A stretch of DNA of 31,457 bases from a bacterium (lineage in GTDB: Bacteria; ARS69): NCBI GenBank assembly GCA_025774805.1, contig JALGZR010000099.1:1-31457 (forward strand), written 5' to 3'. The position numbers were made by a program, and so were the translations under genes. Below, piece by piece: positions 16,601-31,457 of the stretch (position 1 is the first letter of the stretch; each line of letters starts with the position of its first letter). The notes beneath the pieces were generated by a model. That model made no database searches. It worked only from the letters and a program-made list of their open reading frames with translations, and was not told where the DNA came from.

Positions 16601-19600
16601 GTCGTCGAACCAGATGCGCGCGTACTTGATCGACCGCAGGCGAGGAGGCAAGCCCCCGACGGACGCGCCGGCGTCGAGACGGATCCGGTAGAGGCGCCAG
16701 CCGTTGCCGTTGTCCTGGGCGAGCGTGCTGTCGCCGGCCGAGGCCGACAGGTCGAAGACGTACGACAGGTAGGCGTTGTCCGTGTCGAGCAGCCGGTCCT
16801 CGTCGAGGTCCTCGGTGTCGAGCAGACTGTTCCCCTCGTAGCTGTTGATCTTCGTGTACTCCTGGTATCGCGTGGGGTCCTCGGGACGGCTGAATTGGAA
16901 GTCGTCGTCTCCGTCGTCCCCGGGCACGGAATCGCCGTCTCGGCCCTTCACGTTGTCGAGGCCGAAGTCCTCCCGGCTGACCGTGAGCTGTCCGTCCCCC
17001 CCGATCGGCTCGATGTCCTCCGTGTCGAGAAAACCCCTTCCCTTCAGCGGCTGATCGGGATTCTCGCGAACGTAGAAGTCCTCGCTGATCTCCCCCAGAT
17101 CGAAGATGAGACGACCCCGTCTCCGGCCGAAGTCGTTGACCCAGACCTCCAGGAACTTCTTCTCGGAGAAGTCCTCTCCGGTCTGGGAGAGATTCCGCAT
17201 CACGCCCATCCAGCCGGTCGTGTCGCTCGGCACTCCCTCCCGGACCGAGAACTCGAGCACCTGGAGGAAGTCCTGCCCCTCGCGCTCGTCCGCGAGCTCC
17301 GGAAACACCTCCTTGCGGCGGACGACGTTCTCGGGGTTGTACCAGTTCGAGGGCAGTGGTCTCACCCGGTCCGTCGCCTTGTCGAGGTCCAGATCCGACG
17401 GTCCCGCCGGCTCCGACGCCGGCACCCAGAGACCCCGGGTGATCGAGAGCTCCCGGCTGTCCTCGACGCCCTCCATGTCGTCGACGTAGATCTGGTCCTT
17501 CGTATTGGGGTTCGGGATCGACAGGGCCACCTCCCCCTGGACCTGAAGCTCCGACTGGTCCTCGCTCCGGACGAGAGGAAGAGCGTTCACGAGACCGGTC
17601 ATGAAGGACGGGTTGCCGAGCCACTGCCCGTAGAGGTTTCCCACGAGAATGCGCGACGGTTCCTGGCCGAGCCGCGGCCGCTCCTCCGGAGTGGCCCGGG
17701 TGAAGAAGAGCCACGAGGAGCTGAGGCGCGTCTGGGGACTGAAGTTGTAGGTGCCCGACACCCCCACGAGGGACTCCTTCGCCTGTCCGAACAGGGGCAC
17801 GTACTCGAAGTCGACCTCGATCTCGGCGTCCGCCTGGCTCGCGTCCGCCGTGCGGAACGTGACGATGCCGAACTCGTAGTCGATGTCGTAGTCCGTGCCC
17901 CGAGTGAGCTGGCGTCCGTTGAGGCGCACCCTCTCGGAGCCCTCCAGGATGTTGAAACGGTTCAGGGAGTACGTAGGGGTCGGCGTCGTGTACTGCACCT
18001 CGAGGTAGTACTTGTCCTGCCCGAAGAGGTCGTTGGGCTCCAGCGTGTAGATCGCCGAGTTGTAGTCGCCGAGTCTCACCCCCGTCTCTCCGGTCCGCCC
18101 CGTCGAGACCTCCGACGGACTCACGATGACGTTGACCTGCGAAGAGTCAGGCGCGAACGGCGTGAGGTTCGGGAACGTGATGGTGCCGTCCTCGAAGTCG
18201 ATGAACTCCGGCTCGACGATGAGATCGGGGTCCGACGTCGTGATGCCCTTGTAGTCGAGCCCGAGGATCTTCACGAACTCCGTCTCGGGGGCGGAGGGTT
18301 CGTCCGGATCCGCCTGAGTGTCCTTGTCCTGCTGCCCGGCGGAGGACCCCTTCCGGAGGATCACCATCTCGAAGCTCTCGGGAACGATGTTTCTCGCTCC
18401 GATGAAGTAGACGTTCTTCTGCTCCAGGACCCGCAAGGAAGCGAAACCCTTCGTGTCGTCCCAGAGCTCCTGTTCCGGGGGGCCGAGGAGCTGCAAGCGC
18501 AGCGTGTCGACCTCGACGCCGACGCTGTCGGGGACCGTGATGTCGCCGACCTCCCGCCCGTCCGCCCGGACGTAGAACATGGCGAGCGCCTGGTTCCGGG
18601 GCACGGCGCGTTCCAGGGTGAGGGCCCCCGTCTGCCGGTCGATCTGGTAGTCCTCGTTCTCGGTGAGACGGTGGTAGAACCCGCGGTGCACCGCGGTGGA
18701 GTCCCCCGCGACGCCCGCCACGGCGTCGGCGTAACCGAGTCCGATGGGGAGCCCCAAATCGTTGCTGCCGTCCTTGTCGTCGAGGAAGAGCTCGAAGTCC
18801 CCGATGGGCAGGATCGTCGAGTCCGGCGCGAGCGCCAGCGACTCGGGAGGAGTGATCCAGTAGTACTTCCGCTTCACGTAGTCGATGTCCCGGATGCGGA
18901 GGGAGTCCTGCCGCGCCCGCCCGACGAAGTTCTGGGTCGCGGTCTCCCCCTCCTGCTTGGACGCGATGACCGTGAGGTCCAGTGCGCCCAGCTTGGCGAG
19001 CGCCTTCGCCCCGAACAACCCCTGCTGGGACTTGCGGAAGCTGAGGAACTCCGCCCCGGGAAGCGAGAGGTCGGTGTTCCCCATCTCGATCTTCTGGACG
19101 ACCTCGTCTTCGTCCCCGTCGTAGCGAAGCTGGATCTTGTTCTCGAAGTCGGTGTCGACCTCGCTGTCGTGGTTCACGAGCACGTGGATCTTCTCGCCGA
19201 TGGTCCCGTCGAGATTGACCCGCAGGTGCTGGTTCATGTCGAGATCGGGGAACGCCGACGGGTTTCCCGACTCGAAAGTCGGACCTCCCTCGATGATCGT
19301 CGACGTGCCCGAGAACGTGACCCGCTCCGACCCGCTGAGATTGAGGCGGGCCCCCTGACCGATGATATCCGCAACCTGGTCGGGGAATTTGACGGGGAGA
19401 TCGATGGAGACGAGTCCCGCGTCCACCGCGGCGGGAGGCGTGAGGCCGCGCTTCCGCACCTCCTTCGCCCACGCCTCGCGCGCCTCCTTCGCCGCCGCCG
19501 CCAAGGTCGCGGTCCGGACGTCTTGAACGTACTCGGGAATGACGAGGGGCGAGGAGGGGTCCGCCGGGCCGTACTGACGGCGGACGGTCACGCGCCCCCC

Positions 19601-19858
19601 CTCCAGGTCGATCTCCATCGTGTCGCGAACGTTCTTGTTGATCCCTTTGAGGAGCCCCCGGGGCGGGGCGCCGAACAGGCTCACGAAGGAGCGCCGTTCC
19701 TGGAGGTAGCGGGGCAGCCAGAAGGAATCACCCTGGATCTGGTTCGTCCGGTAGTCGGCACGGGCGGTGGACGGCAGAGTGACCGAGAGGGCGAAGAGAA
19801 GGAGGAAGAGCTGTCCGGCGAGGCCCGCCGTTCGGGGGAAGGGAGCTTCCGTGCCCAT
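13646..19858 (-). CDS. sprA: SprA-like outer-membrane translocon protein of the type IX secretion system
   Basis: 2,070 residues from ATG 19858. A signal peptide (FLLLFALSVTLPSTARA, cleavage expected after residue 34) is followed by SprA_N-type sequence. Residues of about 220-275 include the hallmark pattern NHDSEVDTDFENKIQLRY, DEDEVVQKIEMGNTDLSLPG and SQQGLFGAK. IWFDDLEPG (about 1085) and GEIWVDEIRLRR (about 1322) resemble the repeated 'WVNELRL' elements of SprA. Beta-strand-rich sequence continues to a C-terminal Phe (LAFEAILKF), as in outer-membrane barrels. SprA of Bacteroidota is a roughly 2,400-residue, 36-strand pore. An acidic stretch (about 1690-1735) is unusual. ATG 19900 and TTG 19915 are in frame but leave little or no leader after the predicted promoter. 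No other T9SS gene is visible. Confidence 0.88.
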   Translation of the reverse strand: MGTEAPFPRTAGLAGQLFLLLFALSVTLPSTARADYRTNQIQGDSFWLPRYLQERRSFVSLFGAPPRGLLKGINKNVRDTMEIDLEGGRVTVRRQYGPADPSSPLVIPEYVQDVRTATLAAAAKEAREAWAKEVRKRGLTPPAAVDAGLVSIDLPVKFPDQVADIIGQGARLNLSGSERVTFSGTSTIIEGGPTFESGNPSAFPDLDMNQHLRVNLDGTIGEKIHVLVNHDSEVDTDFENKIQLRYDGDEDEVVQKIEMGNTDLSLPGAEFLSFRKSQQGLFGAKALAKLGALDLTVIASKQEGETATQNFVGRARQDSLRIRDIDYVKRKYYWITPPESLALAPDSTILPIGDFELFLDDKDGSNDLGLPIGLGYADAVAGVAGDSTAVHRGFYHRLTENEDYQIDRQTGALTLERAVPRNQALAMFYVRADGREVGDITVPDSVGVEVDTLRLQLLGPPEQELWDDTKGFASLRVLEQKNVYFIGARNIVPESFEMVILRKGSSAGQQDKDTQADPDEPSAPETEFVKILGLDYKGITTSDPDLIVEPEFIDFEDGTITFPNLTPFAPDSSQVNVIVSPSEVSTGRTGETGVRLGDYNSAIYTLEPNDLFGQDKYYLEVQYTTPTPTYSLNRFNILEGSERVRLNGRQLTRGTDYDIDYEFGIVTFRTADASQADAEIEVDFEYVPLFGQAKESLVGVSGTYNFSPQTRLSSSWLFFTRATPEERPRLGQEPSRILVGNLYGQWLGNPSFMTGLVNALPLVRSEDQSELQVQGEVALSIPNPNTKDQIYVDDMEGVEDSRELSITRGLWVPASEPAGPSDLDLDKATDRVRPLPSNWYNPENVVRRKEVFPELADEREGQDFLQVLEFSVREGVPSDTTGWMGVMRNLSQTGEDFSEKKFLEVWVNDFGRRRGRLIFDLGEISEDFYVRENPDQPLKGRGFLDTEDIEPIGGDGQLTVSREDFGLDNVKGRDGDSVPGDDGDDDFQFSRPEDPTRYQEYTKINSYEGNSLLDTEDLDEDRLLDTDNAYLSYVFDLSASAGDSTLAQDNGNGWRLYRIRLDAGASVGGLPPRLRSIKYARIWFDDLEPGPGRKAQIAQVKIVGSAWVEERQSRNDTVVPFEVDDEVGFLGVDVKNNKEDVDYFPPFDPGEDQNNEQKREQALVLEYWDIPSAGAPGDTMGGRQNSAYKEILDTGQGRSQDYTQYETMDFYLRDGSPDRSSQGSFFLRFGPDTTNFYEFTTRELSEAAGGWREISIRLNDLAELKLDPAETTRTVEGVPVDYRYTVDGADTLAVYGLPSLTRVRRMTLGIRGDDPSTPTIRGEIWVDEIRLRRVKKDIGYASRISGSARFADLLNVSGGGKLVDSEFRRIEGNRHGNDERSWNVRGDIKLNKFFDGRGISLPLSGDYSYSETTPLLAPNSDIELEDEEDKAEARSTSRRQSVSSRFAKTRPSRNALLRYSIDNLSFGGSNTRGRNRTPFQTSRTENTSGQASYNLNPGQGKTWRLLKRFDISYLPTVKLGVNGSLATTESADIRENDTGERVEQPRAPVRTRSLLGTMGVQWDPVRSNTFDSSFSFNKRQDFDRHPEEALWESFKRGGRELQRDHVTRLSYRPGFFRWLRPVVSYDTNYQEDQGPSVQPPDLQSRPEAQGGPIRVFRVQNSNSRDFTTTLSLRQLLPKRRETGARGTAPASRARSSRQGRSWRDDLPPEPERDEDEEPEAEKPESEEEGGEEGEEPKGPDFGRIYDGLTSLVHTIGDIRYSYSDRRSSRYSRVSDRPDLAYQFGLTGFDLDVIVPFAGAGASNLIEDNTEDAYSTKLDTSFEPTSTIYLDGSYSRNISKKTLRGTRNKTEDLTFPDISVTIEGLEDRLFLRRWTKSSSLNSAYRRQRRRSGKLPVPGAAVDSTANWYDTENVRKEFSPLLSWSTNWKSGLNTTVSLNRSTTVDESDFRSVLSSTETTSTGWRVNGRYSFSAPKGITILGRRLRFKSDLTLNFDVNGSEAKSVESSIPETGSVTTTVRSHQKSLGIEPRATYNFSRKIQGSVNFSYRRNQDLQRDRTDKTISLAFEAILKF

Positions 19859-19914
19859 CACTTCTCGGTCGAGGGGCCTGCCGGGGCAGATCCGAAACAT
19901 CAAGAGTCGGAACA

Positions 19915-19943
19915 ACTTAAGCTGCCAAACGCGCGCCTGTCAA
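19915..19943 (-). promoter_or_regulatory. Predicted sigma-70 promoter for sprA
   Basis: On the minus strand a perfect TTGACA (19943-19938) is 17 nt from TTAAGT (19920-19915; 3 of 6 to TATAAT). A start near 19908 would give a 50-nt leader to ATG 19858, which favours that start codon. It lies between divergent sprA and lptF. No clear promoter was found on the lptF strand. Confidence 0.4.
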
Positions 19944-19998
19944 GGCGACCTCGGCCGATATGATCCGGGACCGTACGGGCGAGCCCGAGGATGAGCCG

Positions 19999-21318
19999 GT
20001 GAGAATACTCGATCGCTACATTCTCCGGAAGCACGTCGGCCCCTTCGCCTTCGCCACCACGACCATCGCCTTCCTGTTCGCGATGCGGGTCCTCATCGAC
20101 CTCCTCCACCTCTTCGCCTCCCGGAATCTCGGATTCCTCACCATCCTCGAGACGTTCGCCCTCTCCCTCGGCTGGATCCTGGCCATGACCTTTCCCATGG
20201 CGGTGCTCGTGGCCGTGGTCATGACGTTCGGCCGTCTCGCCCAGGACTTCGAGCTGGACGCGATTCACGCCGGCGGCGTGTCGTTTCTCCGGGTCCTCGT
20301 CCCCGTTCTGCTCGCGGCGGCCGTTCTCACCGTCCTGCTCGTGTTCTTCTACAACCGCGTCCTCCCCGACGCGAACCACCGCCTCAAGAACCTCACCGCC
20401 GACATCCACAAGATGCGCCCCACGATCGCCATCCGGGAGCGGGTCTTCATGGACGATTTCGAGGGCTACCGGGTGCTCGTCCGCGAGGTCGAGGAGGAAG
20501 AGGACATCATTCGCGACGTGACGATCTACACCCTCGACCCCCGCGAGCCGACGCGGACGATCCACGCTCCGTGGGGCGAGCTGGTCTACGAAGACGACGG
20601 CAACCGGCTGGTCATCCGCCTTCACGACGGGGAGATCCACGAGGTAGACCGGGAGGACGCCAGCCTCTACTTCCTCATGGAATTCGAGACCCACGAGCTC
20701 ATCTTTGACGACCTGGGAACGAAGCTGGAGCGCCGCGAGGGAGGGAGCAGCCGCGGGGATCGGGAGCTGTCCGCGGGCGCGATGCGGGAGAGGATCGCGA
20801 CCCTGGCCGTCGAGAAGGCGACCCAGGCCGACTCGCTCGAGGCGATCACCTCCCGCAGCCTCGCCGGGATGCGCCGGGGGATCCGGAGCCTCGTGGCGTC
20901 CGAGGACTCGGTCACTCTCTCTCCCGCGGAGTTCACGACCCGGGCCCGGGTCCTGATGCGAAAGATCCAGAACGCCGAGCGACGCCTCGCCGGCAAGCAG
21001 CGCGACATCAATCGCTACTCGGTGGAGATCCACAAGAAGTACTCCTTCCCGGTCGCGTGCATCGTCTTCGTCCTGCTGGGAGCGCCGTTGGGGGTGAGAA
21101 TGCGACGGGGGGGGATCGGGGTCGGCGCCGCGATGTCGTTCCTGTTCTTCATCGTCTACTATCTGGCCACCTTGGGCGGGGAGAAGCTGGGGGATCGCGG
21201 CATCATTCCCGCCTCCCTCGGGATGTGGTCCATCAACGTGATCCTCGGACTCATCGGAATTCTCCTGGTGCTCCGCCGGGACTCCCGCCTCCACCTCGGC
21301 TCGAGGAACGATCGGTGA
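19999..21318 (+). CDS. lptF: LPS export permease LptF
   Basis: LptF pairs with LptG as the membrane half of the LptB2FG ABC transporter that extracts LPS from the inner membrane. From GTG 19999 (439 aa): RILDRYILRKHVGPF, three N-terminal membrane spans (about 15-40, 52-78 and 98-120), a periplasmic beta-jellyroll plus an Arg/Glu-rich helical stretch (about 125-345), and three C-terminal spans (FPVACIVFVLLGAPLGVRMRRGG onward). The periplasmic region contains a helical insertion (about 240-330) that makes it longer than E. coli LptF (366 aa). GAGG lies 8 nt before the GTG; ATG 19960 is an alternative. The stop overlaps lptG (GTGA). Confidence 0.93.
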   Translation: MRILDRYILRKHVGPFAFATTTIAFLFAMRVLIDLLHLFASRNLGFLTILETFALSLGWILAMTFPMAVLVAVVMTFGRLAQDFELDAIHAGGVSFLRVLVPVLLAAAVLTVLLVFFYNRVLPDANHRLKNLTADIHKMRPTIAIRERVFMDDFEGYRVLVREVEEEEDIIRDVTIYTLDPREPTRTIHAPWGELVYEDDGNRLVIRLHDGEIHEVDREDASLYFLMEFETHELIFDDLGTKLERREGGSSRGDRELSAGAMRERIATLAVEKATQADSLEAITSRSLAGMRRGIRSLVASEDSVTLSPAEFTTRARVLMRKIQNAERRLAGKQRDINRYSVEIHKKYSFPVACIVFVLLGAPLGVRMRRGGIGVGAAMSFLFFIVYYLATLGGEKLGDRGIIPASLGMWSINVILGLIGILLVLRRDSRLHLGSRNDR

Positions 21319-22394
21319 AAGTGCTCGATCGGTACGTGATCCGCTCACTCCTCTCACCTCTGGCGGGATCGATCATCGTCTTCCTCACCCTCGCCGTGGT
21401 GGTCGATCTCTTCGAGCGGCTCGACACGTTCATCGACCACGAGGTCCCGGTGCGGACCATCGTTCAGTACTACGTGGCGACCCTGCCCTTCCTGATCGTT
21501 CTCATGCTTCCGGTCGCCACCCTGATCGGGGTGCTGTTCTCCCTCGGGGGAATGGCCCGCCGGAACGAGCTGATCGCGATGACCGCGAACGGGATCAGTC
21601 TCTATCGCATTCTCGCGCCGACGCTCGTGGTCGGCTTCGTCGTCTCCGCGGTCGGGTTCCTCCTCACCGCCGAGATCGTTCCGCGCGGGAACGGGATCTC
21701 CGAGGAGATCTACGACCACGAGATCAAGGGTCGGCCCCGCCTCTCCGGCACGTCCCGGAGAGACCTGAACTACCTCGGATCCGGCGGGCGCTTCTTCCTC
21801 ATTCGTCGCTTCGACGGCGAGGCGGGAGTCATGGACGACGTCGTGGTTCAGCAGTTCGCGGAGGGGACCCTGGTACACCGGATCGACGCGGTCCGCGCCA
21901 CCTGGCAGGAAGACCGCTGGATCTTCGAGAGCGGTTTCCTGCGACGGTTCGGCGAGGACGGCCTGACGGCGATCGAGGCCTTCGAGCAGCGCGCGTTCCC
22001 CGACATCGAGGAGACGCCCCGGGACTTCCTGAGGGAGATCAAGGAGCCGAAGGAGATGACCCTCTCCGAGCTCCGGGAGCACCGCCGGCGAACGCGTCTC
22101 TCGGGGGGAGACGTGACGAAGATCGAAGTCGACGAGCGGATGCGCGCCTCGTTCCCCGCGGCGAGCTTCATCGTGGTCCTGCTGGGCGCCCCCCTCGCGG
22201 GAGCGATCCGCCGGGGAGGACACGCCCTGGGATTCGGCCTCGCGCTTCTGGTCAGCTTCGTCTACTACGTGCTTCTTCAGGTCGGCGAGACCTACGGCCA
22301 CAACGGGACGCTCACCCCGACGCTCGCGGCCTGGCTCCCCAATCTGGTCTTTCTCGCGATCGGGATCTTCGGTCTCTGGAAGTCCCGCAAATGA
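21315..22394 (+). CDS. lptG: LPS export permease LptG
   Basis: Partner of LptF. 359 residues from GTG 21315: VKVLDRYVIRSLLSPLAGSI, membrane spans at about 16-34, 57-77 and 99-119, and a GMARRNELIAMTANGISLYRI cytoplasmic coupling loop typical of the family. A periplasmic domain with GSGGRFFLIRRFD and C-terminal spans starting FPAASFIVVLLGAPLAGAIRRGG follow. AGGAA lies 6 nt upstream of the GTG. The length equals the family norm, unlike the enlarged LptF. It converges on metK. Confidence 0.94.
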   Translation: MKVLDRYVIRSLLSPLAGSIIVFLTLAVVVDLFERLDTFIDHEVPVRTIVQYYVATLPFLIVLMLPVATLIGVLFSLGGMARRNELIAMTANGISLYRILAPTLVVGFVVSAVGFLLTAEIVPRGNGISEEIYDHEIKGRPRLSGTSRRDLNYLGSGGRFFLIRRFDGEAGVMDDVVVQQFAEGTLVHRIDAVRATWQEDRWIFESGFLRRFGEDGLTAIEAFEQRAFPDIEETPRDFLREIKEPKEMTLSELREHRRRTRLSGGDVTKIEVDERMRASFPAASFIVVLLGAPLAGAIRRGGHALGFGLALLVSFVYYVLLQVGETYGHNGTLTPTLAAWLPNLVFLAIGIFGLWKSRK

Positions 22395-22589
22395 TCCGGC
22401 CCTACTCGCCGGCCATCATGAGCCACCCTCCGGGAGGCGCGGTCGGGTGTGGGGTCCCTCCCAGGCCGAGTGGCGAGCTGCGTGAAGTGCGAATCGAGCC
22501 GTGATCGCCGATCCCATCCGCGAGCTTCGAGGCTCGGGAGGGATCCCCGCCCGGGCCGCCCTCCCCCTTCGGTGCTGAAAAGCACGAGG
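22395..22589. other. lptG-metK convergent intergenic region with hairpins
   Basis: This 195-bp gap has no coding signal. It contains a nested inverted repeat at 22510-22545 (GATCCC/GGGATC enclosing CGAGC/GCTCG) and a 5-bp GTGCT/AGCAC stem capped by a GAAA tetraloop at 22572-22585, 4 nt after the metK stop on the minus strand. Neither is followed by a U-run. Most likely these act in 3'-end stabilisation or factor-dependent termination. Confidence 0.5.
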
Positions 22590-23852
22590 CTAGCCCGGAC
22601 TATTCATGAACGACCTGCTGCGATCGCGGATCCGCACCACCGGACGGACGTCCTCGCGTCTCGCACCCTGCGACGTATCGTTCAGATACGCCTCGGGTTC
22701 GAGCGCCTCGACGCGATTCTTCTCCTCCCACGGGAAGCCCTCCTCCTCGCGGCCGAAGTGGCCGTAGGCGGCCGTCCGCTGGTAGATCGGGCGCCTCAGA
22801 TCGAGGGCGGAGATGATGCCCGCGGGCGTCAGATCGAACGTGTTTCGAACGAGGGCCACGATCTCCGCCTCGGAGGCGCTTCCCGTGCCGAACGTCTCGA
22901 CGCGGACCGAAACCGGCTCCGCGACGCCGATGGCGTAGGCGATCTGGATCTCGCATCGGCGCGCGAGCCCCGCGGCGACCACGTTCTTCGCCACCCAGCG
23001 CGCCGCGTAGCTCGCGGACCGGTCGACCTTCGAGGGGTCCTTCCCGGAGAACGCCCCGCCGCCGTGCCGCCCCATGCCTCCGTACGTGTCCACGATGATC
23101 TTGCGGCCCGTCAGCCCGCAGTCCCCGTGGGGTCCGCCGATGACGAAGCGTCCGGTCGGGTTGATGTGGTAGCGCACCGGACGGGAGGCGTCGACGAGAC
23201 CCTGGGGAAGGACCGGCTTCACGACCTGCTCGATGATCGCCTCTTCGATCTGGTCGTGGGTGACTTGATCGTCGTGCTGAGCCGACACCACCACCGTGTC
23301 GACCCGGACGGGACGATCTCCCTCGTATTCGACGGTTACCTGCGCCTTTCCATCGGGGCGGAGGAAGTCGACGCTGCCGTCCGTCCGGACCTCGGCCAGA
23401 CGACGACAGACGCGGTGGGCGAGGGAGATGGGCATCGGCATCAGGTGGGGGGACTCGGAGGTCGCGTACCCGAACATCATTCCCTGGTCGCCCGCCCCCT
23501 GCTCCCGGTGCAGCCCTTCGCCCTCGTTCACGCCGATGGCGATGTCGGCGCTCTGGCGATCGATCGAGGTCATGACGGCGCACGTCTCCCAATCGATCCC
23601 ATAGGAAGCGTTGTCGTAGCCGATCCGCTTCAGCGTCTCGCGTACGACATCGGGGATCTCCACATACGCCTCGGTGGTGACCTCCCCCGAGACGATGGCG
23701 ATGCCCGTGGTAACCATCGTCTCGCACGCGACCCGGCTCTTGGGATCCTGGGCGAGCATCGCGTCGAGGATCCCGTCCGAGATCTGGTCCGCGACCTTGT
23801 CGGGGTGTCCCTCGGTCACCGACTCGGATGTGAAGAGATTGCGTTCGACCAT
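22590..23852 (-). CDS. metK: S-adenosylmethionine synthetase
   Basis: MetK makes SAM from methionine and ATP. 420 residues with [20 protein letters not shown] at the N terminus, the ATP-site hexapeptide GAGDQG, the phosphate-binding [17 protein letters not shown], and [18 protein letters not shown]. It has about 30 residues after the usual end ([16 protein letters not shown]), an Arg-rich tail of unknown role. ATG 23852 has AAGGAGA upstream. It is last in the lpxL-metK gene string, 85 bp after the isomerase gene; that spacer holds a GGCCCGCGGGCC palindrome (23871-23882) but no recognisable SAM riboswitch. Confidence 0.97.
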
Positions 23853-23937
23853 GTTTGGGTCTCCTTCATCGGCCCGCGGGCCAGATACCGGCGTGCGACC
23901 GTCCCCCGCACCGTGCGGCTCCGGCCCGGCCGAGAGC

Positions 23938-25014
23938 TTATTCTCTCGTCGTTTCCGCCGCCAACCGCGATTTCAGACGATCGATGCTGGCCACGGGCGT
24001 GGGATCCACTCCTCTCGCGGCGGCGAGGTAGAGGCTGGCGAGATCCCCGAGGACGGCGAGCGAATACAGGCGGGCGAGAAGCCCCTCTCCCTTCGGACGG
24101 AACCAGGTGGCCCGTCCTCCCGACCGCTCCACCATCTCCGCGACGATCTCCATGCGACGGTGGACGCGGGGGTGAACTCGATCGTCCGTCAGGAACGCCA
24201 CGCACGCGCTCCGGTGCAGGGCGGACGTGACCTCCCAGCCCACGATCTCGTTGTGGTTGTGCTCCGGGAAGAGGGCCACGTGGGCCAGCGACTTCCCGTT
24301 CTCGTTGATCTGGCAGGCCCACCGGGTCGCGACGGCGCCGAGTCGGGCCGCCGGCGCATGGATCAGGATCAGCGCCTCCTTGGCCGCTTCGGCCCAGCGC
24401 CGCACCGCCGGATCCGACCCTCCCGGACCGGCCTCGGACAGCATCGCCTCGCAGGCCCGGGCCGCCTCCTCGACCTCGCTCACCTCGAAGGGCAGCCGCC
24501 CCTCTCGCGCCAGCGCCTGGAACAGGGGAACGGAGGTCCAGCCCAGCGCGGATCGCGGCGGCATTCCCCCGGGAATGCGAAGCACGGGGACGCCGGCGGC
24601 CTCCGCCCGAGCGGCGAGCTCTCCCCCGCTCGTGATGCAGGCGCGCCGGACCTCGCGACGTCCCGCCTCCTCCCACGCGGTCAGCGTCTCCTCGGTTCCG
24701 CCCGAGTAGCTCACGAAAAGCGCCGCCGTCGTGTCGTCCGCCGCCCGGGGGAGCTCGTAACCCCGAACGACCTCCACGGGAAGCGTGGAGAGGACCTCCG
24801 CGTAGGTGCGCAAGAAGTCCCCGCCGATCGCGCTCCCCCCCATGCCGACGACGTACACGCGCGTCGGGTGGAAGTTCCCGAGGAGGTCGGGCCCGCGGAC
24901 GGCGGCGTCCCGGGCCGCGCGCAACTGATCGGGGAACCCGAGGACCCGACCCTTCATGTCGGCCGGATCGTTCTCGGGACGGAGGATCGCCCCGGTCGGC
25001 GAGTCACCGGTCAC
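23938..25014 (-). CDS. Bifunctional phosphoglucose/phosphomannose isomerase
   Basis: Interconverts Fru-6-P with Glc-6-P and Man-6-P, feeding glycolysis and GDP-mannose/envelope sugars. 358 residues, two SIS domains: [17 protein letters not shown] (57-66 core), SYSGGTEET (102-110), then [27 protein letters not shown] (catalytic Glu and His region, 236-261) and [16 protein letters not shown] at the C terminus. The latter two are hallmarks of the PGI/PMI family known from archaea and several bacterial phyla. The GTG at 25014 overlaps the HPr stop (GTGA), so its synthesis is coupled to HPr. Confidence 0.93.
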
Positions 25015-25304
25015 CGCGAGCCCTCCTTGCCCTCCGCGAGCTCTTCGCCGAACCCCTTCCGGACGAGATTGGTGAGATCCTCGAGAACCTCCTCCTCGTG
25101 ATTCCCCTCGACTTCGATCATGATCTCCGTGCCGCAGGGTGCGGCAAGCATCATGAGACCCATGATGCTCTTCCCGTTGACTCGCATCTCGTCCCGGTGG
25201 ATGTGGATCGAGCAGTCGTAGCGGCCGGCCGCCTCCGCGAAGATGTTCGCGGCCCTCATGTGCAGCCCGCGCTTGTTGACGATCCGCACGCTGGCCCGGG
25301 TCAC
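25011..25304 (-). CDS. ptsH: HPr-family phosphocarrier protein
   Basis: 97 residues. RGLHMRAA places the phosphorylatable His exactly at residue 15, with Arg17 kept; the usual Pro18 is Ala. NGKSIMGLMMLAA places Ser exactly at 46, the residue that HPr kinase modifies. Both switches of the HPr family are therefore intact. The GTG at 25304 lies 16 bp after hprK. No EI or EII component is encoded in the window, so the protein may work in a regulatory rather than sugar-transport phosphorelay. The tail after about residue 85 is charged. Confidence 0.94.
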   Translation of the reverse strand: MTRASVRIVNKRGLHMRAANIFAEAAGRYDCSIHIHRDEMRVNGKSIMGLMMLAAPCGTEIMIEVEGNHEEEVLEDLTNLVRKGFGEELAEGKEGSR

Positions 25305-25320
25305 GCGGAGAGCTCCCGGG

Positions 25321-26223
25321 TCATTCGGTGTCTCCCACGTCGCCGATCGGGGATGCCGCGCGATCCTGCTCGATCAGTGTCCGCAGGCGCTCGTCGAGGT
25401 CGGCGGCGGGGCTCCGGCCGGACGTCTTGATCAGGTGGTTCATCGCTACGACCTCGGCGAGAACCGTGACGTTCTTGCCGGGAACCAGGGGGATCGTGAC
25501 GTAGGGGATCCGCACCCCCAGCACCGACGTCGTCCGATCGTCGAGCCCCAGTCGCTCGTAAGGCGCGTCGGGATCCCAGGGCTCCAGTCGAACCTCCACC
25601 TCGATCCGCTTGCGGAGTCGCGTGGCTCGGACCCCGAACATCTCGCGGACGTCGACGATGCCGACCCCCCGGATCTCCATGCGGTGCCCGAGCAGCTCGT
25701 TCGAGCTGCCCACCAGGATCGACGGCCCGCGGCGGCTCACGATCACGATGTCGTCGGCCACGAGACGGTGGCCCCGCTCCACGAGATCGAGCGCCGTCTC
25801 GCTCTTGCCGATGCCGCTCTCGCCCGTGAACAGCAGGCCGACGCCGTACACGTCCACGAGAGAGCCGTGGAGGGTCGTCCGGGGAGCGAAGACGTCGGTG
25901 AGATGGGCCCCGAGCCGGCGGATGAATGGCGTGGTCGACATGCGGGTCCGGAGGAGAGGAACCGACTTCTCCCCGAAGAGGCGATCGATCGAGGCGTGTC
26001 GCTCCTCCGCGGAGAGCGTGTCGAGATAGAGCGTCTCGGTCTCTCCGAGGACCTGGATCCTCTCGTAGAGAAAGTTCTGGGTGAATCCCGCCAGGGCGAG
26101 ACCGGGTCGATTCACCTCGCTCACCGTGATCGGGAGCTTGGCCCCTTTCCCCGGAACGATCACCTCGAGATCCAGCTCGGGAGGCCCTTCTTCGACCAGT
26201 TGGGATACGGAGATCCCCTTCAT
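25321..26223 (-). CDS. hprK: HPr kinase/phosphorylase
   Basis: Phosphorylates and dephosphorylates Ser46 of HPr. 300 residues: an N-terminal Mur-ligase-like domain (about 1-110), His119 in LHGSLVDVYGVG, P-loop GESGIGKSE (134-142), VADDIV (155-160) and the family signature EIRGVGIVDVREMFG (183-197). It ends with an acidic tail. ATG 26223 follows hpf by 22 bp, and HPr, its substrate, is encoded immediately downstream. The arrangement lptB-rpoN-hpf-hprK-HPr resembles that of Proteobacteria but lacks ptsN and rapZ. Confidence 0.96.
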   Translation of the reverse strand: MKGISVSQLVEEGPPELDLEVIVPGKGAKLPITVSEVNRPGLALAGFTQNFLYERIQVLGETETLYLDTLSAEERHASIDRLFGEKSVPLLRTRMSTTPFIRRLGAHLTDVFAPRTTLHGSLVDVYGVGLLFTGESGIGKSETALDLVERGHRLVADDIVIVSRRGPSILVGSSNELLGHRMEIRGVGIVDVREMFGVRATRLRKRIEVEVRLEPWDPDAPYERLGLDDRTTSVLGVRIPYVTIPLVPGKNVTVLAEVVAMNHLIKTSGRSPAADLDERLRTLIEQDRAASPIGDVGDTE

Positions 26224-26245
26224 TCGCCTTGCCCTTCCCCGGAGA

Positions 26246-26740
26246 TCAGCCGGCGACTTCGATGAGCTTCATCGAGCCGTCCGGACGGCGGTAGACGATG
26301 CGCGTGGCCCCGGTATCCGTGTCGGCGAATACCACGACTTCCTCTCCCCCCTCGACGCGGGAGGTGGCCTCGTCGAGGGTCATCATTTCGCGGTTCAGAC
26401 GCTGGCTTTCGATTCGCGTCTCCCCCATCGTCGGGACCTCCTTCGTATTGGCCCTGTGGACACGCAGTCGATCCTCGGTCTTCCGGATCTGCCGCTCGAT
26501 CTTGTCGCACGCGCTGTCGATCGAGACCTTCATGTCGTCCGATTCCGCCTTGCCGGCGAAGTCCCCTCGTCGACCGTGGACGGAGACCTCGGCGGTGTGC
26601 CGGTGCTTCTCGACCTCGAGCACGACGTTCGCCCGCAGGAGACCATCAGAGAACTTCGAGAACCGGTTCAGCCTCTCCTCGGCGTGCTCCCTCAGGTCTT
26701 CGGTGAGATCGAAGCGGCGAGCGGTGACGGAGACCTTCAT
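26246..26740 (-). CDS. hpf: Long-form ribosome hibernation-promoting factor
   Basis: Binds the 30S decoding centre and drives 100S dimer formation in stationary phase. 164 residues: an N-terminal S30AE domain (about 1-95; VSVTARRFDLTEDLREHAEERLNRF, KHRHTAEVSVHGRRGDF, DMKVSIDSACDKIERQIRK), a short linker, and the C-terminal dimerisation domain (about 117-164; MTLDEATSRVEGGEEVVVFADTDTG, IVYRRPDGSMKLIEV) that defines the long form. ATG 26740 has GGAGGT 8 nt upstream. It follows rpoN by 40 bp, as in many Gram-negative genomes. Confidence 0.96.
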   Translation of the reverse strand: MKVSVTARRFDLTEDLREHAEERLNRFSKFSDGLLRANVVLEVEKHRHTAEVSVHGRRGDFAGKAESDDMKVSIDSACDKIERQIRKTEDRLRVHRANTKEVPTMGETRIESQRLNREMMTLDEATSRVEGGEEVVVFADTDTGATRIVYRRPDGSMKLIEVAG

Positions 26741-26780
26741 GGACTACACCTCCGATAGCGGCACGGGCGTGAAGCCCGGG

Positions 26781-28328
26781 TCAGAATTCCTTCCGATAGC
26801 GGGCCGAGAGGATGTTCATCTTCTCCCGGTACTTCGCCACGGTTCGGCGAGCGACGATGAGACCTTCCTCGCGGAGCAACTCCGCGATCTTCTGGTCGGA
26901 GAGAGGCTTCTTCTTGTCCTCCTTGTCGATCAGCTCCCGGATCCGGGCCATCGCCATCTTCGACGAGACGGACTGCCCGGACTCCGTCTCGAGGCCGCTC
27001 GAGAAGAAGTACTTGAGCGGAAACACCCCGCGCGGGATCTGCACGTACTTGTTCGTCGTCACGCGGCTCACCGTCGACTCGTGCATCCCGATTCTCTCGG
27101 CGACGTCCTGCAGGGTCAGCGGTCGCAGGTGGGCCGGCCCCTTCTCGAAGAAGTCGATCTGGGCCTCGACGATGCTCTCCATGACCTTGATCATGGTTCG
27201 ACGGCGCTGCTCGATCGTCTGGATGAGCCAGTTGGCCGACTTGATCTTGTCCTGAACGAACTTGACCTCTTCGTCCCGGGAGCGGGCCCGCTCGTCCCGG
27301 GCCTGGCCGTCTCCCGCGGCAGGGTCGGAAGCCGCGGGCGATCCGGCGCCGTCGGCGCCCGGCTCCGGCTCCCGCCGCTTGGTTGGAGGAGGCGAGGCCC
27401 GCAGGATCTCCCGGTACTTCCGGTTGACGCGAAGTCGCGGGACCGTCCCCTCGGCGAGGGAGACCACGTAGGCGTCGTCGATCTTCTCCACGACGAGGTC
27501 GGGAACGATGTAGCGGGCGTCCTCCAGGGCGAGCTGTGCGCCGGGCCGGGGATTGAGACTGGCGATCTCCCGGGCCGCCTCCTGAACGTCGGACGGCGTG
27601 ACCCCGAGCGCCCGGGCGATCTCTTGGTACTGCTTCTGCTTGAACGCCCCGAAGTGGTCCGCCACGATCCGGCCGGCGAGCGAGTCCTGCCGGCCGCGCT
27701 GACGGAGCTGGATCCGGAGGCTCTCGGTGAGATCCCGGGCCCCGACCCCCACCGGCTCCAGCTCCTGGATCTTCTCCAGTGCGGTGAGAACCATCTCCTC
27801 GGGCACGGCGAGCTGCGCGGCCACCTCCTCGACCGTCACGGAGAGAAAGCCGTGGTCGTCCAGGCAGCCGAGGAGGTACTCGGCCACGCGCTCGGTCTCC
27901 TCGTCGAGATCGAGGAGACGGAGCTGCCCGTGCAAGCTGTCCAGGAGTGTCGTGCGGCCGACCGGCGTCCGCTCGAAGAACTCCTGATCCTCGCGCTCCG
28001 CCCTCCCCCCCTCCGCGTACTCGAACCCGTCGTCGAAGTACTCGCTCCAGTCGATGTTCTCCTCGGACTTGAACTCCGCGTCGTCGGGAGACGTCGCGCT
28101 CTCCTCGCCCGGGATGGTCTCCGCGAGGGCCGCCTCGGCGACCTCGCTCGCCGGGCTCTCGACCTCATCCTCCTCGACCTCGAGCAGCGGATTCGTCAGG
28201 AGCTCCTGATCGATGTGCTGGGAGAGCTCGAGCGACGGCATCTGCAGCAGCTTGAGCGCCTGCTGGAGCCGGGGCGTCATGACGAGCTTGAGGGTCTGCT
28301 TTTGGGTCAGTCGGAGTCCGAGTTCCAT
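26781..28328 (-). CDS. rpoN: RNA polymerase sigma-54 factor
   Basis: Sigma-54 recognises -24/-12 promoters and needs AAA+ activators. 515 residues: Gln/Leu-rich region I (1-50, LRLTQKQTLKLVMTPRLQQALKLLQM), an acidic region II (about 51-120), a core-binding domain, an HTH region (LTLQDVAERIGMHESTVSRVTTNKYVQIPRG, 404-433) and the RpoN box ARRTVAKYR (493-501) that reads the -24 element. Residues of about 312-353 form a Pro/Gly/Ala/Arg-rich low-complexity insertion just before the VKFVQDKIKSANWLIQ helix. ATG 28328 has AGGAGG close upstream. An exact sigma-54 site lies at the head of this gene string. Confidence 0.97.
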   Translation of the reverse strand: MELGLRLTQKQTLKLVMTPRLQQALKLLQMPSLELSQHIDQELLTNPLLEVEEDEVESPASEVAEAALAETIPGEESATSPDDAEFKSEENIDWSEYFDDGFEYAEGGRAEREDQEFFERTPVGRTTLLDSLHGQLRLLDLDEETERVAEYLLGCLDDHGFLSVTVEEVAAQLAVPEEMVLTALEKIQELEPVGVGARDLTESLRIQLRQRGRQDSLAGRIVADHFGAFKQKQYQEIARALGVTPSDVQEAAREIASLNPRPGAQLALEDARYIVPDLVVEKIDDAYVVSLAEGTVPRLRVNRKYREILRASPPPTKRREPEPGADGAGSPAASDPAAGDGQARDERARSRDEEVKFVQDKIKSANWLIQTIEQRRRTMIKVMESIVEAQIDFFEKGPAHLRPLTLQDVAERIGMHESTVSRVTTNKYVQIPRGVFPLKYFFSSGLETESGQSVSSKMAMARIRELIDKEDKKKPLSDQKIAELLREEGLIVARRTVAKYREKMNILSARYRKEF

Positions 28329-28370
28329 GTTCCTCCTCGGGGGGAGAGCCCTACGCGGCGTCGTGATGCC

Positions 28371-29114
28371 TCACAGCCGGAATCTCTCCCCGAGATAGAT
28401 GGCCCGCGCTTCCGGGTTCTCCGCAAGCTCCTTCGCCGTCCCCGAGATCAGCACCTTCCCCTTGAACAGGACGTACGCGCGATCCGTGATGTGGAGCGTC
28501 TCCCGAACGTTGTGGTCCGTGATCAGGATGCCCAGGCCCTTCTCCCGCAGGCGGGAGATGATCTCCTGGATGTCACCCACTGCGATCGGATCGATTCCCG
28601 CGAACGGCTCGTCGAGAAGAAGGAACGAGGGGCTCGTGACCAGAGCGCGGGCGATCTCCACCCGGCGCCGCTCGCCCCCTGAGAGCGTGAAGGCCTTCTG
28701 GCGGGCCACCGACGTGATCTGGAGCTCTGCCAGAAGCTCCTCCAACCGGTTCTCCTGCGCCTTCGCATCGAGGGAGGTCGTCTCCAGGATGGCGCGAATG
28801 TTGTCCCGCACCGTGAGCCCCCGGAAGATGGACGCCTCCTGGGGCAGATAGCCGATCCCGCGGCGCGAGTGGACGTACATGGGGAGTCGGGTGACCGTCT
28901 CGCCGTCGATGGAGACCGAACCGGCGTCGACGCTCACGAGACCCGTCATCATGTAAAACGTCGTCGTCTTGCCCGCGCCGTTCGGACCGAGCAGCCCCAC
29001 GACCTCGCCCCGGTGGACCTCGATGTCGACCTCGTCCACGACGCGGTGTCCGCGGTAGGCCTTCACGAGCCCCCGGCCGAAGAGCCCCATCCGGTCGGTC
29101 GCGGTCTCGATCAC
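28371..29114 (-). CDS. lptB: LPS export ABC transporter ATP-binding protein
   Basis: ATPase that powers LptB2FGC. 247 residues from GTG 29114: Walker A GPNGAGKT (43-50), Q-loop PQE (91-93), signature LSGGE (144-148), Walker B LLLDEP (165-170) and switch His201. GIGYLPQEASIFRGLTVRDNI and FAGIDPIAVGDIQ are typical of LptB rather than other ABC ATPases. The start overlaps the lptC stop in a GTGA. It lies directly before rpoN, a conserved adjacency. Confidence 0.97.
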   Translation of the reverse strand: MIETATDRMGLFGRGLVKAYRGHRVVDEVDIEVHRGEVVGLLGPNGAGKTTTFYMMTGLVSVDAGSVSIDGETVTRLPMYVHSRRGIGYLPQEASIFRGLTVRDNIRAILETTSLDAKAQENRLEELLAELQITSVARQKAFTLSGGERRRVEIARALVTSPSFLLLDEPFAGIDPIAVGDIQEIISRLREKGLGILITDHNVRETLHITDRAYVLFKGKVLISGTAKELAENPEARAIYLGERFRL

Positions 29115-29698
29115 CCCTCCCCTCCCTCCGATTCCTCCGCGAGCCAGTCGGGCGCGCTGGGGGCAGTTGTCTCGACCTCGCGGAGGATCTCCACCCGATC
29201 CAGTCCGGGATCGGCCTCGAGGCCGATGCCGGTCAGGACGGTGTTCCCCTTCGTCACCTCCACGAAGACGTCGGTGTGGATCCGCGCCTTCTGGTGATCC
29301 CAGAAGAGGATCTCGGTCTCGAGCAACGATCCCTCGTCCGTCTCGACCCGGACGTTTCCTCGGGCCTCCAGGTCGTCCGAGACCTGATTGAGAATCCCGA
29401 TGTCCGCGGTCAGTCGGGAGACGTGTCGGTCCTCGTCGAAGAAGTCGACCCGGACCTGCTCGGCCTCGGTCCTCTTCTTCTCGCGGAACACCGAGGCGGT
29501 GTCGGCCTGGAGGACCCAGCGGGTCGTCCCGACCCGGTAGCTCTGCACGGAGATGCCCCGGATCCCCTCGCTCGGGGACCTCGAGGGTCGATCCATGGAC
29601 GCCAGGTTCTCTTCCCCGCTCTGGCACGCGACCCATCCTCCGAACGCCAGTATCAGCAGCCCGAGCGCCGCTCGAGCGCCACTCCCTGTCCTCGTCAT
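29111..29698 (-). CDS. lptC: LPS export protein LptC
   Basis: LptC is the bitopic inner-membrane protein that receives LPS from LptB2FG and hands it to LptA. 195 residues: an N-terminal hydrophobic segment (ALGLLILAFGGWVAC, Cys25, so possibly a lipoprotein), then a periplasmic beta-jellyroll with WVLQADTASVF, DLEARGNVRVETDEGSLLETEILFWD, ARIHTDVFVEVTKGNTVLTGIGLEAD and LDRVEI, the usual LptC/YrbK pattern. ATG 29698 overlaps the lpxL stop (ATGA). The gene is followed directly by lptB; no lptA lies between them. Confidence 0.92.
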   Translation of the reverse strand: MTRTGSGARAALGLLILAFGGWVACQSGEENLASMDRPSRSPSEGIRGISVQSYRVGTTRWVLQADTASVFREKKRTEAEQVRVDFFDEDRHVSRLTADIGILNQVSDDLEARGNVRVETDEGSLLETEILFWDHQKARIHTDVFVEVTKGNTVLTGIGLEADPGLDRVEILREVETTAPSAPDWLAEESEGGEG

Positions 29699-30690
29699 CG
29701 GGCACTCACCGTTCTTCTTGAGGATTGAAAAGTAATGAGTTGGCGCGATCTCCTCGGGAAAGTTCTAAAGTCCGAAGGGGCGCTGGACGGGGCCGCCGGA
29801 GGGGTCTTCCAGCGCCGGTGGTGCCACACCCACTCCTCGGGATGCCGCCGAATCACCCCTTCCAGAAGCCGGTTCCAGGCGGCGGCATCCGCCCGGATTG
29901 CCGCCCCCGGATCGGAGAGCGTCGAGGGCGGAAGCTCCGGTCGGATCCGGACGCGGTGACCGCCTCGGGCGTCCCGGTGGATCCACATCGGGACCATCGG
30001 CGCCCCCGTCCGACGGGCCAGCAGAAAGGGCAGCGAGGACGTCCGCGCGGGGCGCCCGAAGAACTCGGCGAAGACCGCCGGGCCTCTCGTGTCCTGATCG
30101 ACGAGCGCTCCCAGCAGTGCCCCTTCCCGCAGGGCCCGGATCACCGGGATCACCCCGCCCCGTCCGTCGTGGAGCGTCAGACCGCAACGCCCTCGCCAGG
30201 CGTTGAGGAGAGCGTCCGAGCGAGAGTCGAACAGCCTGCGCACCAGGACGTGAACGGGGTATCCGCGGGCCGCCAGCGCGGCGCCCATGATCTCCCAGCA
30301 TCCGAGGTGCGCGGAGAGCGCCACGACGCCCCGTCCCCGCGCCCGGGCGGCCTCGAGGTGCTCGATCCCCTCGAACTCCACGTTCTGCAGCACGTCGGCC
30401 GGCTCCCGGTGAAACGAGCGCAGCAGGTCGAGCACGTTGCGCCCGGTGGCGCGGTAGGTCGCCCGCATGAGAGACACCCGCTCCCGTCGGGAGAGCTCGG
30501 TTCCGAACGCGATTTCGAGGTGATCCGTCGTCCGGCGGACCGAGGGGCGATCCACCCAACGGACGACATCTCCGATGCCGGCAAAGACCGGCAGGCCGAC
30601 CCGCCGGGGAAGAGCTCGACTGAGTGCCTCGAGACCCCGAACCGCGCTGTAGAAGAGAATCCGTTTCTCTCGACGAAACCTGCCGTGCAA
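29695..30690 (-). CDS. LpxL/HtrB-type lipid A late acyltransferase
   Basis: Adds a secondary acyl chain to Kdo-lipid A or a related precursor. 331 residues with ARGRGVVALSAHLGCWEIMG, containing the HX4E catalytic pair His128/Glu133, then DQDTRGPAVFAEFFGRPARTSSLPFLLARRTGAPMVP and WVWHHRRWK near the C terminus, all features of the LpxL/LpxM fold. TTG 30690 is chosen because GGGAGG lies 7 nt upstream and a predicted transcription start falls 46 nt upstream; the frame stays open to 30795, but that stretch carries the promoter. The exact acyl chain and position cannot be told. It overlaps lptC by ATGA. Confidence 0.9.
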   Translation of the reverse strand: MHGRFRREKRILFYSAVRGLEALSRALPRRVGLPVFAGIGDVVRWVDRPSVRRTTDHLEIAFGTELSRRERVSLMRATYRATGRNVLDLLRSFHREPADVLQNVEFEGIEHLEAARARGRGVVALSAHLGCWEIMGAALAARGYPVHVLVRRLFDSRSDALLNAWRGRCGLTLHDGRGGVIPVIRALREGALLGALVDQDTRGPAVFAEFFGRPARTSSLPFLLARRTGAPMVPMWIHRDARGGHRVRIRPELPPSTLSDPGAAIRADAAAWNRLLEGVIRRHPEEWVWHHRRWKTPPAAPSSAPSDFRTFPRRSRQLITFQSSRRTVSAR

Positions 30691-30718
30691 GCGCGGCCCT
30701 CCCTTCCCGTCCTCCCGA

Positions 30719-30747
30719 AATCTAGGGGAGGCGAGCCGCCGAGTCAA
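30719..30747 (-). promoter_or_regulatory. Sigma-70-type promoter upstream of lpxL, overlapping the sigma-54 element
   Basis: On the minus strand TTGACT (30747-30742; 5 of 6) is exactly 17 nt from TAGATT (30724-30719; 4 of 6). The expected start is near 30712, leaving a short leader that still contains the GGGAGG ribosome-binding site of lpxL. Its -35 shares a base with the -12 element of the sigma-54 site. Confidence 0.5.
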
Positions 30748-30762
30748 GCAAGAGGAGTGCCA
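30747..30762 (-). promoter_or_regulatory. Exact sigma-54 (-24/-12) promoter element upstream of lpxL-lptC-lptB-rpoN
   Basis: On the minus strand it reads TGGCAC-TCCTC-TTGCT (30762 to 30747), preceded by T. This matches the sigma-54 consensus YTGGCAC-N5-TTGCW with GG and GC at the correct -24 and -12 spacing. Transcription would start near 30736, 46 nt before the lpxL TTG. No convincing activator-binding repeat was identified in the 170 bp upstream. Confidence 0.7.
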
Positions 30763-30902
30763 ACTCAGAAACCCTCTGGGGCAAAAGCCTTTCACGCGAT
30801 CACCCGAGGCCGGCCGGCCCCTCTCGCCCGCCTCCGCGGCGGCCGTGGCTCGCCGCGCTCGGCGATCTCGCCGGCCGGTCCCGCCCGCCTCTGCTGCGGC
30901 AG

Positions 30903-30919
30903 CGGCTCGCGACGAGCCG
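30903..30919. terminator. Perfect hairpin after kdsD, possible terminator
   Basis: CGGCTCG (30903-30909) and CGAGCCG (30913-30919) form a perfect 7-bp stem with a 3-nt loop, 15 nt past the kdsD stop on the minus strand. No U-tract follows, so intrinsic termination is doubtful. It would separate kdsD transcription from the lpxL promoter. Confidence 0.35.
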
Positions 30920-30934
30920 GGTGAGAAGTGCCCG

Positions 30935-31457
30935 CTAGCGGAGCCCGGCTTCGAGGCAGTCGTGGAGGTGGAGGACCCCGACCGGCCGCCGGTCCGGATC
31001 CACGACCACGAGGGACGTGATCCTCCGGGCCGGCTGCTCCATCCGCTGGATGGCGCGCGCCACGAGCTCCCCCGGACAGATCGTGCGTGGATCGCGCGTC
31101 ATGAGGCCGGAGACGGGAAGCGAGAGGCTCTGCGGGTCCCGGAGGAGCGCGCGCCGAACGTCGCCGTCCGTGAAGACCCCGGCCAGCGTCCCGTCCTCGT
31201 TCACGATCACGGCCGTGCCGAGCCGCTTGTCGGAGATGACGTGGAGAACGTCGAGGAGGGTCGCCTCACCGCGGACGAGCGGCAGCTCGGGCCCCGAGTG
31301 CATCAGATCCCTCACCCGCAGGGAGAGGCGCCGGCCCAGGCTGCCGGCGGGGTGGAGGAGGGCGAAGTCCCGCGAGTCGAGGCCGCGTCGGCGGTAGAGT
31401 GCGATCGCGACGGCGTCTCCCAGGGCGAGCGTCGCCGTCGACGAGACGGACGGGATG
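30935..31457 (-). CDS. kdsD: Arabinose-5-phosphate isomerase KdsD/KpsF, C-terminal part (partial)
   Basis: Converts ribulose-5-P to arabinose-5-P, the first step of Kdo synthesis. The frame is open at the right edge, so only about 173 codons are seen. The end of the SIS domain reads STATLALGDAVAIALYRRRGL and FALLHPAGSLGRRL (usually HPGGSLG). Two CBS domains follow: VRGEATLLDVLHVISDKRLGTAVIVNEDGTLAGVFTDGDVRRAL and the second with TICPGELVARAIQRM and SLVVVDPDRRPVGVLHLHDCL. It is separated from lpxL by 244 bp, and no kdsC is found next to it. Confidence 0.94.
   Translation of the reverse strand, partial: IPSVSSTATLALGDAVAIALYRRRGLDSRDFALLHPAGSLGRRLSLRVRDLMHSGPELPLVRGEATLLDVLHVISDKRLGTAVIVNEDGTLAGVFTDGDVRRALLRDPQSLSLPVSGLMTRDPRTICPGELVARAIQRMEQPARRITSLVVVDPDRRPVGVLHLHDCLEAGLR

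Follow-up and report, generated by a model that had tools for sequence, protein, structure and literature searches.

In the diderm bacteria, the gene for sigma-54 sits in a conserved and ancient neighbourhood, kdsCD-lptABC-rpoN-hpf-PTS-Ntr (Francke et al. 2011, PMC3162934), and in Geobacter sulfurreducens the gene order YhbG(LptB)-rpoN-hpf-hprK has been described (PMC2725144). Expression of rpoN that itself depends on sigma-54 has been reported for G. sulfurreducens and for Dokdonia, and is enriched in several bacterial classes (PMC12316311). Overlap between promoters of two holoenzymes is likewise on record. As summarised in PMC4064962, Bradyrhizobium japonicum fixR-nifA carries the overlapping promoters P1/P2, which serve two holoenzymes (Barrios et al. 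1995), while in Escherichia coli sigma-54 represses sigma-70 promoters at class I/II sites, and competition of such geometry occurs in vitro (PMC4551910).

The locus described here lies in the window, a stretch of 31,457 nt from a GC-rich, poorly known lineage with very few genomes. A sequence-only reading had proposed that overlapping sigma-54 and sigma-70 promoters head an rpoN-containing LPS operon, and genome-wide position statistics support this, with the sigma-54 promoter very probable and the sigma-70 promoter plausible. As in the neighbourhood of Francke et al., kdsD, lptC, lptB, rpoN, hpf and a PTS-type switch all run in one direction; unlike it, the run is without lptA, rapZ and ptsN and includes lpxL, hprK, pgi/pmi and metK. 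With Geobacter sulfurreducens and Dokdonia the locus shares a sigma-54 promoter, here a putative one, ahead of a transcription unit, here a predicted one, containing rpoN, and with the former also the order lptB-rpoN-hpf-hprK, but here the site heads an operon that begins with lpxL, not rpoN itself, and overlaps a sigma-70-type promoter. The features are as follows, with G002 denoting a relative from a different genus (LpxL 56% identical).

30935-31457, minus strand: 3' part of kdsD, with CBS domains, at the end of a kdsB-pyrG-kdsA-kdsD run that continues on contig C283
30805-30931, minus strand: two tandem degenerate repeat copies, between kdsD and the promoter
30747-30763, minus strand: putative sigma-54 promoter, -24/-12 element TTGGCACTCCTCTTGCT; sole match in the window, of an intergenic, gene-upstream score class
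30742-30747, minus strand: sigma-70-type -35, TTGACT; class enriched upstream of genes, not kept in G002
30719-30724, minus strand: sigma-70-type -10, TAGATT; CTAGATT at the same place in G002
30698-30705, minus strand: ribosome-binding site AAGGGAGG, read from the sequence, 7 nt before the TTG start
29695-30690, minus strand: lpxL-type lipid A acyltransferase (Pfam PF03279), TTG start supported by G002
29111-29698, minus strand: lptC, with a lipobox-like N terminus (Pfam PF06835)
28371-29114, minus strand: lptB (TIGR04406, above cut-off)
26781-28328, minus strand: rpoN, with all three sigma-54 domains and the RpoN box ARRTVAKYRE
26246-26740, minus strand: hpf, long-form hibernation factor (PF02482 and PF16321)
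25321-26223, minus strand: hprK
25011-25304, minus strand: HPr
23938-25014, minus strand: bifunctional phosphoglucose/phosphomannose isomerase (pgi/pmi)
22590-23852, minus strand: metK, last gene of the run, with an 85-nt gap ahead of it

The gene list given in the sequence-only reading, lpxL-lptC-lptB-rpoN-hpf-hprK-HPr-pgi/pmi-metK, is correct by Pfam and TIGR domains. From lpxL to pgi the gene junctions range from overlaps to gaps of up to 42 nt, and the spacing widens to 85 nt only before metK. The TTG start of lpxL at 30690 aligns with the TTG of G002; beyond it, a longer open frame reaches a GTG at 30795. Between the promoter and metK, scanning found neither a second sigma-70-like site nor a credible terminator, and Rfam had no match in 19000-31457. 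A further promoter inside lptB, of a kind beyond the reach of consensus scans, may drive rpoN alone. Contig C283 has a 114-nt overlap with the end of the window and carries, in the same orientation, kdsB-pyrG-kdsA (Pfam) and the first part of kdsD.

Several observations concern the surroundings of the run. Two LptF/LptG permease genes (window 19960-22394, plus strand) converge on its end; two minus-strand frames in this region, 21354-22301 and 19900-21357, were rejected as genes, having no Pfam match where the real genes are of the LptF/LptG type on the plus strand. Further on, a 2084-aa protein (13646-19900, minus strand) matches SprA_N (motility/secretion, type IX). The window lpxL and lptC are two genes with a 4-nt overlap, whereas in G002 a single open frame of 515 aa (L087:12230-13777) carries both Pfam domains across a lipobox-like join.

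On re-reading of the window sequence, the coordinates and letters reported earlier for both promoter elements proved correct. Specifically, TGGCACTCCTCTTGCT occupies 30762-30747 on the minus strand and presents GG and GC dinucleotides 10 nt apart in the context TGGCAC-N5-TTGCW; the only departure from the wider consensus is a T for G after TGGCAC. The predicted sigma-54 transcription start lies at ~30736. A distance to the start codon of 46 nt, as given before, holds when measured from this predicted start, but the motif itself stands 56 nt upstream of the lpxL TTG. The pattern TGGCAC-N5-TTGCW matches once in the whole window, as had been claimed, and not at all in 100 dinucleotide-preserving shuffles; the earlier expectation of ~0.03 chance matches is right for uniform base composition.

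Across the 5.1 Mb genome the exact pattern occurs 3 times and the reversed pattern 4 times. The raw count is therefore no evidence by itself, and it is position that carries weight: each of the 3 exact matches lies between genes, 36-56 nt ahead of a start codon. Position was assessed in 765 kb of stretches from the same genome, which were in part picked for motif matches or enhancer-binding proteins, the motif matches being taken irrespective of coding status. Genes were called there with our own simple codon-usage caller (617 genes, 87% coding), and every GG-N10-GC was scored against an intergenic background of 12.6% of bases. Sites scoring at least 7 were intergenic in 7 of 7 cases, each no more than 250 nt ahead of a start, and those scoring 6.5 in 10 of 11, together 17 of 18; among sites scoring 5 or less, the intergenic share was about that of the background. 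Matches with up to one mismatch and GG/GC kept, collected genome-wide and located in the sampled DNA, were intergenic in 25 of 33 cases.

The genes behind other high-scoring sites encode, among others, type IV pilin-like proteins, a flagellar rod protein, three Hsp20 proteins, GroES and efflux proteins, and several of the sites have an enhancer-binding-protein gene at most a few hundred nt away. Both a sigma-54 with its RpoN box and some 30 enhancer-binding proteins (PF00158) are encoded in the genome. Given the intergenic, gene-upstream score class, these classical targets, the enhancer-binding proteins and the complete RpoN, the site upstream of lpxL is very probably a genuine sigma-54 promoter. 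As an observation in its own right, the strong sigma-54-type sites upstream of the three Hsp20 genes and one GroES gene (L142:14116-14586, L167:9349-9786, L159:4043-4495 and L149:2741-3031) suggest chaperone control by sigma-54 in this genome.

The same statistics bear on the idea that only the sigma-70 promoter matters and that the -24/-12 match is fortuitous or a decayed remnant. Such a reading would fit a comparison in which TAGATT alone is common to G002, as well as a genome-wide count of exact matches no higher than that of the reversed pattern. Against it stand the location of every exact match just upstream of a gene and the lack of any site scoring 7 or more in coding DNA within the 765 kb, and we consider it very unlikely.

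The sigma-70-type element, TTGACT-N17-TAGATT, spans 30747-30719 on the minus strand, with a predicted start at ~30712. It is the only sigma-70-type site matching 9 of 12 positions in 22300-31457, where shuffles gave 0.4 (sd 0.7). Sites with a -35 of at least 5/6, TAnnnT and a spacer of 17 fell upstream of genes 18 times, in other non-coding DNA 5 times and in coding DNA once, even though the coding DNA is ~20 times the size of the upstream class. Sites identical in class to this element (-35 5/6, -10 4/6, spacer 17) occurred 5 times, always upstream of a gene and never in coding DNA. Sequence statistics show the sigma-54 element, the gene order and, less strongly, the sigma-70 element, which we regard as credible but less sure than its sigma-54 counterpart. 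Among 30 strong sigma-54 sites, only the one at lpxL has a sigma-70-like element alongside, as would suit essential genes that must be expressed at a basal level.

The two elements are of good quality, lie on the same strand inside one polymerase footprint and have base 30747 in common, which belongs to both the -12 element and the -35 hexamer. The geometry resembles that of the E. coli class I/II sites, where the -24/-12 element also falls inside the sigma-70 footprint with the -12 C intact; the E. coli promoters tested were argT, chaC, mdfA and patA, none of them that of the rpoN operon (PMC4551910). In an alternative reading, the sigma-54 site is real but acts mainly as a brake, the unactivated holoenzyme occluding the sigma-70 promoter in negative autoregulation of rpoN, with little sigma-54 transcription. 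The -12 GC, which holds the closed complex silent, is intact at lpxL and is present at all the repressive E. coli sites (PMC4551910), and neither an activator site nor an adjoining enhancer-binding-protein gene was found. Conversely, the site is near consensus and at the usual distance from a start codon, like others in the genome, and the gene for an enhancer-binding protein often lies at a distance from the promoters it serves, a situation reported for several promoters of Geobacter. On balance, a site that works chiefly as a brake seems unlikely.

The sequence-only reading had found no activator site, and the result here is the same: none was recognised upstream, the palindromes there being copies of a dispersed repeat. 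A 41-nt direct repeat in the spacer (30813-30853 and 30870-30910, 83%) sits where an enhancer would and was rejected as an activator site, being a copy of this dispersed intergenic palindrome. Shared 12-mers between the lpxL upstream region and other sigma-54 promoters were at about chance level, and none of the ~30 enhancer-binding proteins is encoded near the promoter.

The 244-nt kdsD-lpxL spacer consists largely of the two degenerate repeat copies. The repeat family occupies ~54 places per Mb sampled, nearly always intergenic, and its consensus, GCATTTCTCACCAGGCTCGTCGCGAGCCGCTGCCGCGGCAGAGCCTGGTGAGAAATGCAGGCTAG, forms a near-perfect 58-nt hairpin (-47 kcal/mol, z -9.5); the degenerate window copy folds no better than shuffles. 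Copies are over-represented in the gaps of convergent gene pairs; in 10 of 18 tandem pairs, the repeat begins within ~4 nt of the stop codon of the upstream gene, where the CTAG flanking the repeat may supply that stop. The family is absent from the other four genomes of the family, and no Y1/RAYT transposase that might have moved it was found in the genome.

The phylum sample comprised five genomes, and G002 is the only relative in which the kdsD-lpxL junction is assembled; in G001, G003 and G004, either the contigs stop short of the spacer or a kdsD orthologue was not found. The spacer of G002 measures ~60 nt against 244 here, contains no -24/-12 element and no good -35, and shares only TAGATT (as CTAGATT, at the same place). 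Retention of GG/GC in close relatives, on which the sequence-only reading had staked its proposal, thus fails in the sole relative available for comparison, although G002 holds many sigma-54-type sites elsewhere in its genome. Since G002 belongs to a different genus and has so short a spacer, the loss limits the age and generality of the arrangement and is no disproof in the window genome; the arrangement may be specific to this genus. The difference in spacer length between this genome and G002 is probably due to insertion of the repeats. In other lineages, the fetched flanks of LpxL homologues contained no sigma-54 site scoring 6 or more. Among rpoN-proximal sigma-54 sites in 23 other genomes, one was of note: in Brevifollis gellanilyticus, a near-consensus site (L055:5912-5927) lies ~75 nt before rpoN itself.

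The comparison with G002 also bears on whether lpxL-metK might be transcribed mainly by read-through from kdsB-pyrG-kdsA-kdsD, with the local promoters secondary. This seems likely in G002, where the gap is ~60 nt without a good -35, and here, too, the kds run lies directly upstream. Yet the gap in the window is 244 nt, with repeat copies between the operons and two promoter elements, and we judge read-through as the main source of transcription to be quite unlikely.

The data are most compatible with a model, which we hold to be probable, in which a dual sigma-54/sigma-70 promoter serves the LPS/rpoN operon and sigma-54 helps to set its own level. In this model, the housekeeping sigma-70 promoter would provide basal transcription from ~30712, and the overlapping sigma-54 promoter would add activator-dependent transcription from ~30736 when an enhancer-binding protein is active. 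Transcription would pass through lpxL, lptC, lptB and rpoN, and probably on to metK, such that the level of sigma-54 would be set jointly with lipid A acylation, LPS export, ribosome hibernation and the HPr switch. Mutual exclusion of the two holoenzymes is expected from the base common to the -12 element and the -35, and the unactivated sigma-54 complex would damp sigma-70 output. We infer from the geometry of the site and from other bacteria that transcription reaches rpoN, that the two polymerases exclude each other and that feedback results; its sign may be positive through activated sigma-54, negative through occlusion, or both depending on conditions.

A bolder version, which appears unlikely as a whole, would be a self-limiting switch: the unactivated sigma-54 holoenzyme would occlude the housekeeping promoter of its own essential LPS operon until a stress-responsive activator flips the site to high output, one overlapping promoter thereby linking the amount of sigma-54 to the supply of lipid A, to ribosome hibernation and to SAM synthesis, in an arrangement that would have arisen after repeat insertion parted lpxL from the kds operon.

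The novelty implied by the sequence-only reading was set too high, given that sigma-54-dependent rpoN (PMC12316311) and sigma-54/sigma-70 overlap with occlusion (PMC4551910; fixR-nifA) are known. Both halves of the design thus exist elsewhere, and what is new is that they come together, in this lineage, at an operon headed by lpxL. From the account of fixR-nifA in PMC4064962, that system regulates the activator gene nifA, whereas the predicted operon in the window includes the gene for the sigma factor.

Sigma-54 has long been tied to LPS export by gene neighbourhood, and direct control needs concrete promoter candidates. The site upstream of lpxL presents a clean candidate for sigma-54 control of the LPS neighbourhood, rpoN included. 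If functional, a single promoter would tie the level of sigma-54 to the building of the outer membrane.
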